A DNA stretch of 64,000 nt, from assembly GCF_000711725.1 (NCBI RefSeq), contig NZ_JONP01000001.1, forward strand, positions 248,001-312,000, in the 5' to 3' direction. Shown piece by piece: positions 54,173-59,894 of this stretch. Made by a program: the position numbers and the translations under genes. How positions within the stretch are numbered: position 1 is the first letter of the stretch; every line of letters begins with the position of its first letter. The notes below the pieces were generated by a model. That model saw only the letters and a program-made list of their open reading frames with translations. It did not search any database and had not been told where the DNA came from. The DNA is from Roseomonas aerilata DSM 19363 (lineage in GTDB: Bacteria; Pseudomonadota; Alphaproteobacteria; Acetobacterales; Acetobacteraceae).

Positions 54173-55804
54173 TCATTCCACTATCGCCACGCGGAGCGCG
54201 TTGGTGGTGCCGGGGGTGCCGAAGGGGACGCCGGCGACGACCACCACCTCATCGCCGCGCGTGGCGAAGCCTTCCGCGGCGGCGGCGCGGACGCCCTTGG
54301 CGACCATGTCGCTCATGCTCGCAGGTTCCTTGCCCGGCACGGGATGCACGCCCCAGACGAGGGCGAGGCGGCGGGCGGTCTCCTCGCTGGCGGTCAGGCC
54401 GATGATCGGCGGCGTTGGACGCTCCCGTGCCACGCGCAGCACGGTGCTCCCCGTCGAGGTGAAGCAGGCGATGGCCTCGGCCTCAATTGTGGTGGCCACC
54501 TGGCGGGCGGCGGCGGCGATGGCGTCCGAGGAGGTGTGGCGCGGCTCGGGGCGGGCGGCGTCGGTCATGGAGCGCCAGCCCGGGTCCTGCTCGGTGCGGG
54601 CGATGATGCGGTCCATGATGTTCACGGCCTCGTAGGGGTACTGGCCGGCGGCCGTCTCGGCGGAGAGCATCACGGCGTCGGCGCCGTCGAAGACCGCCGT
54701 GGCCACGTCGCTCGCCTCGGCGCGAGTGGGCGTGGGGGCGCTGATCATGCTCTCGAGCATCTGCGTCGCGACCACGACGGGAATGCCGCGGGTCCGGGCG
54801 CCGCGGATGATGCGCTTCTGGATGAGGGGCACCTCCTCGGGCGGGCATTCCACGCCAAGGTCGCCGCGGGCGACCATGACGGCGTCGGCGAGGTCCAGGA
54901 TCTCGTCCATGTGCTCGACGGCCTGGGGCTTCTCCATCTTCACCATGATCCAGGCGCGGCCGGCGGCGATCTCCTTCGCCTCCGCCACGTCCTCGGGGCG
55001 CTGGACGAAGGAAAGGCCGATGAACTCGACGCCCTGCTCCAGCACGAAGGCGAGGTCGGCGCGGTCCTTCTCGGTCAGCGCGGGGATGGGGAGTGCGACG
55101 TCCGGCACGTTCACGCCCTTCCGGTCCGAGAGGGCGCCGCCGACGAGCACCTCGGTTTCCAGATGGTCCTCCCGCTGACGGGTGACGCCTAGGCGGAGCT
55201 TGCCGTCGTCCAGCAGGAGGCTGGTGCCGATACGGGCGGCGGAGATGATCTCGGGGTGGGGGAGCTGGACGCGGCGGACGTCGCCGGGAACGGGGGAGAG
55301 GTCGAGGCGGAAGGGCTGCCCGGGCTGGAGCTGCACGCGCCCGCCCGCGAACTTACCGACGCGGAGCTTGGGCCCCTGCACGTCCGCGAGGATGCCGATC
55401 GGGCGGCCGGTGCGGCGCTCGAGGTCTCGGATGGTCGCGATCCGCGCCGCGTGGTCGTCATGCGAGCCGTGCGAGAAGTTGAGGCGGAAGATGTCGGCGC
55501 CGGCGCGGAAGAGGCGTTCGATCACCTCCGGGCTGCTGCTGGCGGGACCGAGGGTCGCGATCATCTTCGTGCGGCGGCGGCGGCGGATGGCGATCTTGGG
55601 GGCCAAGCGGGGCGCTCCTGCAGGGGCGGCGGTCGGGAGAAGGGTGTCGGGGGCGACCTCCATGATGCGGGCCACCTCCTCCACCCGTTCGGGCGGGATG
55701 CGACGCCACTGCGAAACGGCGGCGGTGGAGATGCCGAGGCCGGTGGCGATGCGGGTGACCGCACCGCGCCGGGCGAGAAGGGTTTCGAGAGCTTGGTCGC
55801 GCAT
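54173..55804 (-). CDS. pyk: pyruvate kinase with N-terminal YdaS/Cro-like helix-turn-helix
   Basis: 543 aa. Residues ~70-543 are a complete pyruvate kinase: R-R-T-K-M-I-A-T-L-G-P-A-S, R-L-N-F-S-H-G, the signature I-M-V-K-M-E-K-P-Q-A-V, V-A-R-G-D-L-G-V-E, and M-L-S-A-E-T-A-A-G-Q-Y-P. Residues 1-57 instead resemble YdaS/Cro-type DNA-binding domains: A-L-E-T-L-L-A-R-R-G-A...L-G-I-S-T-A-A-V-S-Q-W-R-R-I-P-P-E-R-V. I checked on the minus strand that this frame runs without a stop into the kinase. An internal ATG at 55673 with GGAGGAGG 11 nt upstream could give a kinase without the domain. The 55804 ATG has no clear ribosome site. Context (glycerate kinase, tartrate dehydrogenase) recalls ttuE. DNA binding is inferred. 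Confidence 0.9.
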   Translation of the reverse strand: MRDQALETLLARRGAVTRIATGLGISTAAVSQWRRIPPERVEEVARIMEVAPDTLLPTAAPAGAPRLAPKIAIRRRRRTKMIATLGPASSSPEVIERLFRAGADIFRLNFSHGSHDDHAARIATIRDLERRTGRPIGILADVQGPKLRVGKFAGGRVQLQPGQPFRLDLSPVPGDVRRVQLPHPEIISAARIGTSLLLDDGKLRLGVTRQREDHLETEVLVGGALSDRKGVNVPDVALPIPALTEKDRADLAFVLEQGVEFIGLSFVQRPEDVAEAKEIAAGRAWIMVKMEKPQAVEHMDEILDLADAVMVARGDLGVECPPEEVPLIQKRIIRGARTRGIPVVVATQMLESMISAPTPTRAEASDVATAVFDGADAVMLSAETAAGQYPYEAVNIMDRIIARTEQDPGWRSMTDAARPEPRHTSSDAIAAAARQVATTIEAEAIACFTSTGSTVLRVARERPTPPIIGLTASEETARRLALVWGVHPVPGKEPASMSDMVAKGVRAAAAEGFATRGDEVVVVAGVPFGTPGTTNALRVAIVE

Positions 55805-55813
55805 GCCACGAAG

Positions 55814-55826
55814 TTAGTGATGTTAA
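55814..55826 (-). promoter_or_regulatory. operator-like site 1 upstream of pyk
   Basis: TTAGTGATGTTAA on the plus strand, 10 nt before the pyk start codon. Matches site 2 at 11 of 13 positions, differing only in the central two bases, and is a TTA-N7-TAA imperfect dyad. Confidence 0.5.
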
Positions 55827-55853
55827 GCTGTCTGCGCGAGGGAGTGGATGACC

Positions 55854-55866
55854 TTAGTTTTGTTAA
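55854..55866 (-). promoter_or_regulatory. operator-like site 2 upstream of pyk
   Basis: TTAGTTTTGTTAA on the plus strand, exactly 40 bp from site 1 (start to start, about four helical turns). Both sites lie in the only AT-rich part of the 135-nt gap upstream of pyk. Confidence 0.5.
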
Positions 55867-55897
55867 GGATTTGGGAAGGCGGGCATTTCCCTGCGCG

Positions 55898-55939: not shown

Positions 55940-56881
55940 TCAGGCGGCGGATGCGCCCGACCGGCGCTTGCGCACCATGGCCAGGCCGAGAAGCCCCAGA
56001 CCGAACAGCGCCATTGAGGCGGGTTCCGGCACGGCGACCGGGCCAATGCTGCCGAAGGCGATATCGCTGACCGCGTTCGACCCGAAGCCACCCAGGAAGG
56101 TGGCCGCACCGGTGGCCAGGTTGATCGTGTAGAGGCCGGTTCCACCGGTCAGGCTGGTGAGCGAGGCGAGGGCCTGGCCGGAGAGGCCGTCGATGTCGAA
56201 GCCGATGCCGCTGGAGGAGAAGCTCAGGCCGAGCGAGCCGATGGTGCTGAGCGTGCCGTTGTTCGGCGGATTCTGGAGGACCAGGGAACCCGTCGCCGCG
56301 TCGATGCCGTAGAGCATGGTGGCGGTGACCGTGCCCGGAACCTGGTTCGTATAGGCGACTGCCGTCATGTTCGGGTTGGCGCCGGCATTGGCGTCGGCTG
56401 GCGCGTAGGCGAGCGTCCCGTCGATGGTGGTGGCGCCGGTCGTTGGGTTCACGCGCAGGTTCTGGTCGGTGGCGGTGACGACGCGGATCGCGTCGGGCAC
56501 CGGGTTGAAGGCCATGCCGAAGTCGAGGTTGCCGCTGTTCACGGGAATGCCGGGCCCCGCCACGCGCGTCGCCGCCCCGCTGGCGGTATCGATGGTGAAG
56601 AGGCCACCGGACTGGCCGATCGCGTAGAGCTGCCCGTTGGAAGGGCGCACATCGATGCCGCGGATGGCCTCACCATTCAGGCCGCTGATGCTCAGCGTTG
56701 AGGTGACGGCGGATGGGGCAGCCGAATCGAAGCCGATGAGGGTGTTCGACCCGGCCAGGCCGATGATCGGCGCGGCGGTGGCGGCGGAACCGGTCGCTGT
56801 CAGGACGAGGAAGGATCCGAGGGTCAGCGCATGGCGGAAGGAGGGTGCCCGGACGGAACGCGTGAGTCTCGACGGATGCAT
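55940..56881 (-). CDS. DUF4394 protein with PEP-CTERM sorting signal
   Basis: 313 aa from the ATG at 56881 (GAGAGG 9 nt upstream). Signal peptide (A-L-T-L-G-S-F-L-V-L-T-A-T-G-S-A-A-T-A-A). The DUF4394 beta-propeller-like repeats follow (I-G-F-D, L-Y-A-I-G-Q-S-G-G-L-F-T-I-D-T, R-V-N-P-T-T-G-A-T-T-I-D-G). The C-terminus has the motif V-P-E-P-A-S-M, a membrane helix and a basic end (V-R-K-R-R). Such proteins are processed by an exosortase and go to the surface or to exopolysaccharide. No exosortase gene is in the window. Confidence 0.9.
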   Translation of the reverse strand: MHPSRLTRSVRAPSFRHALTLGSFLVLTATGSAATAAPIIGLAGSNTLIGFDSAAPSAVTSTLSISGLNGEAIRGIDVRPSNGQLYAIGQSGGLFTIDTASGAATRVAGPGIPVNSGNLDFGMAFNPVPDAIRVVTATDQNLRVNPTTGATTIDGTLAYAPADANAGANPNMTAVAYTNQVPGTVTATMLYGIDAATGSLVLQNPPNNGTLSTIGSLGLSFSSSGIGFDIDGLSGQALASLTSLTGGTGLYTINLATGAATFLGGFGSNAVSDIAFGSIGPVAVPEPASMALFGLGLLGLAMVRKRRSGASAA

Positions 56882-56940
56882 GGTGGTGCCTCTCGGTTGT
56901 CGGCAGCCGGGTTCGGCCCAGGCTGCTCGGCAGGCCTTGC

Positions 56941-57325: not shown

Positions 57326-58654
57326 TCAGGGACGGGCTGCGGCCGGGGTTCCGGCGATGATAACGGCGCGGAAGTCGTTCACGTTGGTCAGGGTCGGGCC
57401 GGTGACCACGAGGTCGTCCAGGCCGGAAAAGACGTCATGGCTGCGATGGGCGAGGAGCGCCCCGCGTGGATCGATGCCGGCGGCGGTGCTGCGGGCGAGG
57501 GTGTCGGGGCCGGCAACGGCGCCCGCGTTGCTCTCCGAACCGTCGATGCCGTCCGTGTCCGCCATGAGGGACCAGATGCCGGGGTGGCCGGCGAGCGCCA
57601 CGGCGAGGCCGAGCAGGCATTCGCCGTTGCGGCCACCGGCGCCCTTCGCCTCGCCGAGGGTGACGGTGGTTTCGCCGCCGGAGAGGAGGACGGCCGGGGC
57701 GCGCAGCGGGTGGCCGTGGGCCGCGACGGAGCGGGCGATGCCGGCGAGAAGGGTGCCGGCCTCCCGCGCCTCGCCTTCCAGGGCATCGCCGAGGATGAGG
57801 GGGGTGAGGCCGATGGCCTCCGCCTCCTTCGCGGCGGCCTGGAGGGCCATGAGGGGGGTGGCGATGAGGCGGTACTCGGCGCGGGCGAGGCGGGCGTCGC
57901 CGGGCTTGGGGGTTTCCTCGGCGGCGGCGTCGAGATGGGCACGGACATGGTCCGCCAGCGGGATGGCGTAGCGGGCGACGATCCTCTGCGCGTCGGCGAA
58001 GCTGGTGGGGTCGGCCACGGTGGGGCCCGAGGCGATGGCGATGGGGTCGTCGCCAGGTACGTCGGAGATGGCGAGGGTCACCACGCGCGCGGGGTGGGCG
58101 GCGGCGGCGAGGCGGCCACCCTTGATGGCCGAGAGGTGCCGGCGCACCGCGTTCATCTCGTTGATCGTGGCGCCGCAGGAGAGGAGGGCGCGGTTGACGG
58201 CCTGCTTGTCCGCCAGCGTCAGCCCGGGGGCGGCCAGGGGCATGAGGGCGGAGCCGCCGCCGGAGATGAGGGCGAGGACGAGGTCGTTCTCGGTCAGGCC
58301 CTGCACCATGGCCAGGATGCGGGCGGCGGCGGCCTCCCCGGCGGCGTCGGGCACGGGGTGGGAGGCCTCGACCACCTCGATGCGTGCGGTGCGGACGGCG
58401 TGCCCGTACCGGGTGACGACGAGGCCGGTGAGGGGGGTGTCGGGCCAGGCGGCCTCCACCGCCGCGGCCATGACGGCGGCAGATTTTCCGGCGCCGACGA
58501 CGATCACGCGGCCGCCGGAGCCGAGGGCGGGTGGCTCGGGCAGGTGGGCGGCAAGGATGGTGCGGGGATCGGCGCTGGCGATGGCGGCGTCGAGCAGGCG
58601 GCGGAGCGCGGCGCGCGCCGCGGTGTCGTCCCAGTTCCCGGGTTGCGCGTCCAT
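57326..58654 (-). CDS. ttuD: glycerate 2-kinase (DUF4147/MOFRL family)
   Basis: 442 aa from the ATG at 58654 (AGGAGAGA upstream). N-terminal DUF4147 domain with V-G-A-G-K-S-A-A-V-M and S-G-G-G-S-A-L (phosphate loops), then V-R-R-H-L-S-A-I-K-G-G and A-I-S-D-V-P-G-D-D. C-terminal MOFRL domain with G-G-E-T-T-V-T-L, G-G-R-N-G-E-C and the D-T-D-G-I-D-G-S segment. It phosphorylates D-glycerate at O2; older annotations call it hydroxypyruvate reductase TtuD. It is divergent from tartrate dehydrogenase (160 nt). The product, 2-phosphoglycerate, feeds towards pyruvate kinase. Confidence 0.88.
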   Translation of the reverse strand: MDAQPGNWDDTAARAALRRLLDAAIASADPRTILAAHLPEPPALGSGGRVIVVGAGKSAAVMAAAVEAAWPDTPLTGLVVTRYGHAVRTARIEVVEASHPVPDAAGEAAAARILAMVQGLTENDLVLALISGGGSALMPLAAPGLTLADKQAVNRALLSCGATINEMNAVRRHLSAIKGGRLAAAAHPARVVTLAISDVPGDDPIAIASGPTVADPTSFADAQRIVARYAIPLADHVRAHLDAAAEETPKPGDARLARAEYRLIATPLMALQAAAKEAEAIGLTPLILGDALEGEAREAGTLLAGIARSVAAHGHPLRAPAVLLSGGETTVTLGEAKGAGGRNGECLLGLAVALAGHPGIWSLMADTDGIDGSESNAGAVAGPDTLARSTAAGIDPRGALLAHRSHDVFSGLDDLVVTGPTLTNVNDFRAVIIAGTPAAARP

Positions 58655-58814
58655 GCTCTCTCTCCTGGCGTCGGCGGCATCTTCACCGGGCGGGCGGTGC
58701 GGGCAAGCCCACCGGGTGAAATGGCCCGCGGGCTTGCCGCGAGGGCGGGGCTGTGGAATTCGCTGGGGGAAGCGGCCCCGCCGCGCCGAACAGGAAGAGG
58801 AAGGCCCAGGAACC

Positions 58815-59894
58815 ATGCGACGCCACCGGATCGCCGCCATCCCCGCTGACGGCATCGGCAAGGAGGTCATCCCCGCCGGGTTGCGCGTGCTGGAGGCTCT
58901 GGCCAAACGGGACGGCGGCTTCGCCTTCGATGTCGAGACGCTGCCCTGGGGCAGCGACTACTACCGCCAGACCGGCGCGATGATGCCGGAGGACGGGCTG
59001 GAGACGCTGCGCGGCTTCGACGCCATCTATTTCGGCGCGGTGGGCGACCCGGACCTGCCGGACAGCATCACGCTCTGGGGTTTGCGCCTGAAGATCTGCC
59101 AGGGCTTCGACCAGTACGCGAACATCCGCCCGACACGGGTGCTGCCGGGGCTGACGAGCCCGCTGCGCGCGGTGGAGCCCGGCGACATCGACTGGGTGAT
59201 CGTGCGGGAGAACTCCGAGGGCGAGTATGCCGGCCACGGCGGCCGGGCCCATCGCGGGCATCCGGAAGAGGTGGCGACCGAGACCTCCATCTTCACCCGC
59301 GCGGGGGTGGAGCGGATCATGCGGGTGGCCTTCGACATCGCGCGCGCGCGGCCGCGGAAGCTGCTGACGGTGGTGACGAAGTCCAACGCCCAGCGCCACG
59401 GCATGGTCATGTGGGACGACATCGCGGCCGAGGTGGCGAAGAACTACCCGGACGTGACCGTGGAGAAGGAGCTGGTGGACGCGATGGCCGCGCGGATGGT
59501 GAGGAAGCCCGCGAGCATCGACACGGTGGTGGCGACCAACCTGCACGCGGACATCCTCTCGGACCTCGCGGGGGCGGTGGCAGGGTCGCTCGGCGTGGCG
59601 CCGACGGCGAATCTCGATCCCTCCCGCCGCGCACCCTCGATGTTCGAGCCGATTCACGGCTCGGCCTTCGACATCATGGGCAAGGGCATCGCCAATCCCG
59701 TCGCGACCTTCTGGACGGGGGCGATGATGCTCGAGCACCTCGGGGAGCCCGCGGCGGCGGCGGCGCTGATGACCGCCGTGGAGCGCGTCTGCGCCGACGG
59801 CGTGTTCACGGCGGATCTCGGCGGCACGGCGGATACCGAGACGGTGACGCGGGCCGTCGTCGCGGCGATCGAGGGCGCGAACAAGGCGGGGTGA
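58815..59894 (+). CDS. ttuC: tartrate dehydrogenase / beta-decarboxylating dehydrogenase
   Basis: 359 aa. Isocitrate/isopropylmalate-dehydrogenase fold: I-P-A-D-G-I-G-K-E-V at the N-terminus, D-Q-Y-A-N-I-R-P, V-I-V-R-E-N-S-E-G-E-Y, K-S-N-A-Q-R-H-G, N-L-H-A-D-I-L-S-D-L, E-P-I-H-G-S-A. The Y-Y-R-Q-T-G-A-M-M-P-E-D-G block near residue 50 and the overall length favour the TtuC/D-malate group over LeuB. It oxidises tartrate, D-malate or related acids with NAD and Mn2+/Mg2+. A TctC receptor follows 73 nt later. Confidence 0.85.
   Translation: MRRHRIAAIPADGIGKEVIPAGLRVLEALAKRDGGFAFDVETLPWGSDYYRQTGAMMPEDGLETLRGFDAIYFGAVGDPDLPDSITLWGLRLKICQGFDQYANIRPTRVLPGLTSPLRAVEPGDIDWVIVRENSEGEYAGHGGRAHRGHPEEVATETSIFTRAGVERIMRVAFDIARARPRKLLTVVTKSNAQRHGMVMWDDIAAEVAKNYPDVTVEKELVDAMAARMVRKPASIDTVVATNLHADILSDLAGAVAGSLGVAPTANLDPSRRAPSMFEPIHGSAFDIMGKGIANPVATFWTGAMMLEHLGEPAAAAALMTAVERVCADGVFTADLGGTADTETVTRAVVAAIEGANKAG

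Follow-up and report, generated by a model that had tools for sequence, protein, structure and literature searches.

A pyruvate kinase with a Cro-type DNA-binding domain and phage-like operators before its gene in Roseomonas and relatives

Results

The fused pyruvate kinase gene

The window analysed here (64,000 nucleotides of the genome of Roseomonas aerilata DSM 19363) contains a pyruvate kinase gene (pyk) whose predicted product is a Cro-type helix-turn-helix (HTH) joined through a flexible linker to a complete pyruvate kinase (PK), all in a single open frame. The gene and the elements before it are as follows.

54173..55804, minus strand: HTH-PK fusion gene, one ATG-started frame of 543 codons plus stop
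54176..55576, minus strand: pyruvate kinase barrel and C-terminal domain (Pfam and NCBIfam matches, structure model)
55577..55633, minus strand: variable linker, residues 58-76 (pLDDT below 50 at residues 59-69; pN/pS)
55604..55606, minus strand: candidate internal start TTG, at the position of the start codon in HTH-less relatives
55615..55619, minus strand: AGGAG, Shine-Dalgarno-like, 8 nt before the TTG
55634..55804, minus strand: Cro-type HTH, residues 1-57 (Pfam, profile, structure model)
55700..55729, minus strand: STAAVSQWRR, recognition helix region within the HTH
55811..55816, minus strand: TAACTT, putative -10 box that shares bases with the proximal operator (position counts)
55813..55827, minus strand: proximal operator CTTAACATCACTAAC, 7 of 8 bases, -23 to -9 from the ATG
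55834..55839, minus strand: putative -35 box TCGCGC, 17 nt before the -10 box (position counts)
55853..55867, minus strand: distal operator CTTAACAAAACTAAG, 8 of 8 bases, -63 to -49 from the ATG

A preliminary description of this DNA had proposed that an HTH runs in frame into a complete PK, and the single 543-codon frame with Pfam matches to both parts bears this out. The PK barrel family PF00224 matches residues 77-394 (E 3.3e-109, 365.4 bits) and the PK_C family PF02887 residues 427-539 (E 9.3e-36, 122.8 bits), both over their curated cut-offs, as is the score of 497.9 bits for TIGR01064. The translation contains the stretches MVKMEKP, ARGDLGVE and ATQMLESM, which we take to be important for catalytic activity, and judged by its sequence the PK domain is intact. 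Ordinary pyruvate kinases (NCBIfam NF004886; PDB 7oo1 and 7ueh) resemble residues 74-543 of the fusion; its close HTH-less relatives lack the HTH, the linker and the operators, all three of which are present here. AlphaFold predicts an ordinary PK, a disordered linker (residues 59-69) and a compact helical HTH. Since the only other PK-like match in the genome (a 518-aa frame) is just 34% identical over residues 76-405, the fusion looks like the sole ordinary PK of its genome. The DVQGPK stretch (residues 141-146, window 55367-55384) bears a Lys where potassium-dependent pyruvate kinases presumably have Glu, which suggests a potassium-independent enzyme.

For the HTH, the YdaS/Cro-type label given in the preliminary description stands as to the general kind; its YdaS part is the weaker one. 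P22_Cro (PF14549) matches residues 14-46 with 27.9 bits in the whole protein and 31.3 bits in the first 78 residues alone, the cut-off of 30.2 being passed in the latter scan and missed in the former. YdaS (PF15943) scores 21.4 and 25.6 bits, short of its cut-off of 30. By these curated cut-offs the domain is nearer to P22 Cro than to YdaS, and two phage relatives (L183 and L179) exceed the PF14549 cut-off. Modelled alone by AlphaFold (mean pLDDT 86), the HTH has as its top Foldseek match among solved structures the prophage Cro 3bd1 (probability 1.00, with a weak E of 0.078), and its sequence profile matches P22 Cro 1rzs (E 1.5e-6); the predicted fold is thus that of Cro. With phage Cro proteins of the P22-Cro/YdaS kind (PF14549, PF15943; 1rzs, 3bd1) the fusion shares HTH sequence and recognition helix. 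YdaS is itself described as a Cro equivalent in PMC9986795. At E 0.001 the window's genome gave no second match to the HTH profile (A1, built on 25 of 41 distinct HTH sequences) among the 31 of 128 first-look candidates that were scored.

Distribution and conservation

The N-terminal extension recurs on pyk homologues, in at least 57 distinct loci of Roseomonas and relatives. A search of 60 related genomes and of genome contigs (best 80 loci, identical coding sequences removed) yielded at least 43 HTH-bearing loci versus 52 close HTH-less pyruvate kinases, and scanning 200 genomes of the family with a profile brought up 26 HTH-PKs, of which 14 were new and distinct. Among 289 genomes across the class (a few of them of the same family), five had a match at E 1e-8, and only the window's own showed a PK-length frame. 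The fusion is more than a chance event because the same HTH heads PK in 43 plus 14 distinct loci.

Twenty-one HTH columns are invariant among 25 sequences, including A28, A29, V30, S31, Q32 and W33; some of the later-added loci differ at S26, T27 or R34. Within the genus, pN/pS is 0.14 for the HTH (residues 1-46), 0.115 for the PK barrel and 0.97 for the linker; over all 43 loci it is 0.33 for the HTH versus 0.24 for the barrel. By these ratios the HTH is under purifying selection, within the genus almost as strong as that on the barrel. Counted from the first residue, the 'RTK' of PK lies at 13 different distances in the 43 loci and the frame is always kept; read in the other frames, the stretch before it contains a stop in 35/43 loci (+1) and 28/43 (+2).

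In a PK-domain tree of 42 fused and 52 HTH-less rows (the truncated L104 was left out), all 42 full-length fused rows fall in one group of 54 (SH-aLRT 98) that also includes 12 HTH-less rows. One gain of the HTH followed by losses is therefore the simple reading, to which alternatives exist. The tree has six changes of HTH state, and with an AU p of 0.056 a single origin is neither shown nor firmly rejected.

Internal starts

The first residues of HTH-less pyruvate kinases form a short stretch such as MSARIPLRRRRRTK, and an ATG or TTG stands at the corresponding position in 32/43 fused loci. At least four Shine-Dalgarno bases precede all 32 of these internal starts, and at least five precede 30 of them versus 1/11 of the loci that have no such start. 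At least four such bases occur at the internal position in 39/43 loci, start codon or not (background 31%). The internal codon is TTG in ten Roseomonas loci, whose genes use TTG only 13 times among 416 leucine codons, ten of these being the internal codon itself. Ten of the 14 added loci have an ATG at this position and four have no start there. The retained start codon and Shine-Dalgarno bases suggest that a PK without HTH is probably also made in most lineages; since the internal start is absent in 11/43 loci (and 4/14 added ones), two products cannot be general.

A further in-frame ATG, Met48, is preceded by AGGAGG. The preliminary description had put an internal ATG at 55673; its true position is 55663-55661. 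Met occurs at position 48 in the 11 HTH-PK loci of the same genus and is a possible third start.

Operators and putative promoter before pyk

A CTTA-N7-TAAG palindrome with at least 7 of its 8 bases lies within 110 nt of the start in 56/57 HTH-PK loci (43/43 of the first set, 13/14 of the added set), mostly at -23 over the -10 box. In the first set the proximal copy, at 7/8 bases, is at -23/-24 in 40/43 loci. A second, non-overlapping palindrome is present in 37/57 loci (34/43 of the first set, 3/14 of the added); a 7/8 site is absent from L144, and in L140 the one present is distal. None of 52 near HTH-less relatives has the palindrome at 7/8 bases in the 110 nt upstream, and mononucleotide shuffles of the same upstream stretches gave one site in 3% and two in 0.06%. 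For this comparison the start of an HTH-less gene was the nearest upstream ATG (set at the motif in L016 and L103, which have no ATG; L108 has 74 nt upstream), and L002 (below 60% identity) and L021 (motif not matched) were dropped. HTH and sites coincide over all 94 tree rows, with both in 42 and neither in 52; this coupling amounts to one independent contrast on well supported branches and six on the best tree.

In the region of the putative -35 box, T stands at -35 in 31/39 loci and G at -33 in 35/39. The pyk start lies about 7 bases past the putative -10 box, a spacing that would give a leaderless mRNA.

Genome-wide, the double site turned up in 18 of the 21 HTH-PK genomes that were searched, a single time per genome and, by comparison of coordinates, immediately in front of pyk in every case; it occurred in 0/14 HTH-less genomes, and a reversed control gave none in all 35 genomes searched. 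The 21 were taken from 35 known HTH-PK genomes, and because the 14 omitted ones have at most one 7/8 site before pyk, the double site is present in at best 18/35 and is not universal. In the window's genome both the exact palindrome and the double site occur once, at pyk. Single CTTA-N7-TAAC sites lie in nine places, one at pyk and eight elsewhere. Exact-site and double-site searches of the genomes gave no second double-site place among the matches listed, and a regulon is unsupported. Control of neighbouring carbon genes, raised in the preliminary description, thus found no backing, and control of further target genes by HTH-PK is not supported by the distribution of sites. Control of its own gene, proposed there as well, gains support from the operators and from the phage relatives described below.

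Exact sites number 76 in 28 HTH-PK genomes (of the 35 known) and 17 in 14 others. We considered avoidance of the palindrome and dropped it as evidence: the window's genome has one exact site versus 10 reversed-control sites, but genomes without the HTH are just as poor in it. Since the motif is scarce in every genome, with or without the HTH, its scarcity away from pyk does not point to a dedicated regulator.

Relatives among phage cro genes

The nearest stand-alone relatives of the HTH that we found are cro genes, on 13 viral contigs and in three bacterial loci. The viral genes, identified via the peptide ISTAAVSQ and a second pattern and not via the operator, are 43-60% identical to the HTH and encode products of 65-69 aa. 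CTTA-N7-TAAG lies at -23/-24 from their first ATG in 11/11 distinct upstream regions (13 viral loci), with 8/8 bases in nine and 7/8 in two, and a CTTGC or TTGC -35 box stands at the same position as in the pyk set in the eight viral upstream regions inspected. Phage cro promoters therefore share with the fused pyk an operator at -23 over the -10 box and the promoter spacing. A divergent HTH_3-type (CI-like) gene adjoins cro in 5/5 loci scanned and is also annotated in phage phiKM1. The arrangements differ in two respects: phage Cro is a stand-alone protein (65-69 aa) opposite a cI-like gene, whereas in the window a glycolytic enzyme carries the Cro domain at its N-terminus; and a PEP-CTERM protein is encoded upstream of the window's pyk, versus cI in the phages.

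Where the recognition helix of a Cro relative differs, so does the palindrome, which stands at a similar position. The sequence CTAAACATGGTTTAG precedes phiKM1 cro, GTTAGCATTGCTAAC precedes L145, and GCTCAG-type repeats, judged by eye, precede small HTH genes. For two of our loci (L191 2501-2683 and L147 1432-1677) we note an unannotated cro gene in Komagataeibacter phage phiKM1 and, in genome G224, the same sequence upstream of cro, probably in a related prophage.

Because the same operator stands before phage cro genes with the same recognition helix, it appears that a phage cassette of promoter, operator and cro was captured by pyk, as one piece inserted between glycerate kinase and pyk. 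That the transfer ran from phage to pyk is argued from parsimony; a tree of the HTH (26 rows) is poorly separated, and this direction is not seen in the short-domain tree.

Gene neighbourhood and similar fusions

Between glycerate kinase and pyk, the window has a gene for a DUF4394/PEP-CTERM protein (55943-56890); in many relatives the end of the glycerate kinase frame, judged by eye, directly precedes pyk. Beyond it lie the glycerate kinase gene (DUF4147/MOFRL) and a divergent dehydrogenase gene of the Iso_dh family (57329-59891). Glycerate kinase, Iso_dh-family dehydrogenase and pyk together resemble a tartrate utilisation cluster (ttuC-ttuD-ttuE).

Related domains were seen before other enzymes and chaperones. 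In L195 (1311-2447) a YdaS/HTH_3-type HTH precedes CysD (PF15943 36.3 bits, PF01507 173 bits), and L199, L204, L205, L206 and L207, judged by eye, are HTH-CysD fusions too. TTTAG-N5-CTAAA palindromes lie shortly before the start in 3/6 of these and further upstream in 2/6; none was found in L204. By Pfam, a YdaS/P22_Cro-type HTH precedes a chaperone of the TorD/nitrate reductase delta type in L112 (1600-2379) and L113 (979-1734), with further HTH-TorD-type fusions, judged by eye, in L193, L194, L196 and L197.

Discussion

We consider it probable that pyk acquired a phage cro gene along with the promoter and operator of that gene, that the cro reading frame was joined to pyk, and that the fused PK binds its own palindromes as an autogenous repressor, with plain PK also being made. 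Full-length PK subunits would carry Cro domains to the proximal palindrome, and to the distal one where it is present. Given that the proximal palindrome overlaps the -10 box, binding there should block RNA polymerase, and repression of its own promoter would hold PK at a set level. PK tetramers could occupy both sites at once, and a second product, PK without HTH, would come from the retained ancestral start inside the linker. That HTH-PK binds, and with what sign it acts, we infer from the position of the operator and from the phage model; on these grounds autorepression is the likeliest function of the fusion.

Several other explanations were weighed. The fused protein might instead activate, sitting on the distal site, which lies upstream of the -35 box, and assisting RNA polymerase. 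A separate distal site in 34/43 loci of the first set would suit such a role, but 20/57 loci have no second separate site, and the proximal site over the -10 box, which varies least, is placed as in front of phage cro genes, whose Cro is expected to act as a repressor; activation is improbable. Still more so is use of the internal start alone, with the upstream codons a relic or a separate small Cro peptide. The AGGAG and TTG of the window, and the start codon with at least four Shine-Dalgarno bases in 32/43 loci, speak for it; yet none of the 43 loci has a stop between the two parts, linker lengths differ by whole codons, the HTH is under purifying selection, and in the 11/43 loci that have no internal start PK would be made as the fusion. 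Scarcely credible is the proposal that a different regulator, such as a prophage CI or Cro supplied in trans, is the one that uses the palindromes. Within a phage, Cro and CI as a rule recognise the same operators, which would allow this, but sites and fused HTH coincide throughout the tree, and in the window's genome the HTH profile matches one place, the fusion itself (31 of 128 first-look candidates scored).

A metabolite sensor, in which DNA binding would be switched when PK takes up PEP, pyruvate or a sugar phosphate, was already suggested in the preliminary description; it is compatible with autorepression and somewhat unlikely. Pyruvate kinase is an allosteric tetramer, and there is precedent in the enzyme-repressor PutA, which is switched by its substrate (PMC5293562); the predicted disordered linker, in turn, would pass on a conformational change poorly. 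On a wider reading, a whole phage lysogeny-switch module could have been domesticated as glycolytic feedback, in which a DNA-binding PK from a leaderless mRNA and plain PK from the internal start form mixed tetramers that respond, at the two operators, to how much PK is present or to its ligand state, HTH-CysD and HTH-TorD being similar captures by other proteins in the same bacterial family; this wider scheme is possible and less likely than not.

Enzymes that repress themselves via an added DNA-binding domain are already known, and such a PK is apparently new: we found no report of an HTH-bearing pyruvate kinase in the open-access literature among the matches listed. The trifunctional proline utilization A (PutA; PMC5293562) represses its own genes via an added DNA-binding domain and is switched functionally by proline. 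Common to PutA and HTH-PK is an enzyme and a DNA-binding domain in one chain; PutA has a ribbon-helix-helix, acts in proline catabolism and has been shown to switch with proline, whereas HTH-PK has a Cro domain and is known from sequence alone. BzdR, an enzyme fold turned regulator (PMC3602430), likewise has a linker between a DNA-binding domain and a kinase-fold enzyme domain. Its shikimate-kinase-like domain is effector-binding and has lost catalysis, whereas the PK domain of the fusion is intact as judged by sequence.

If PK reads its own promoter, it would join the small number of enzymes known to control their own genes by binding DNA directly. The fusion would also be a clear natural example of an enzyme becoming its own regulator, in which ancestral start, added domain, imported operators and the matching phage elements are all still visible. 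Whether the amount of an enzyme or its state sets transcription would then become a question testable with one protein and one promoter.
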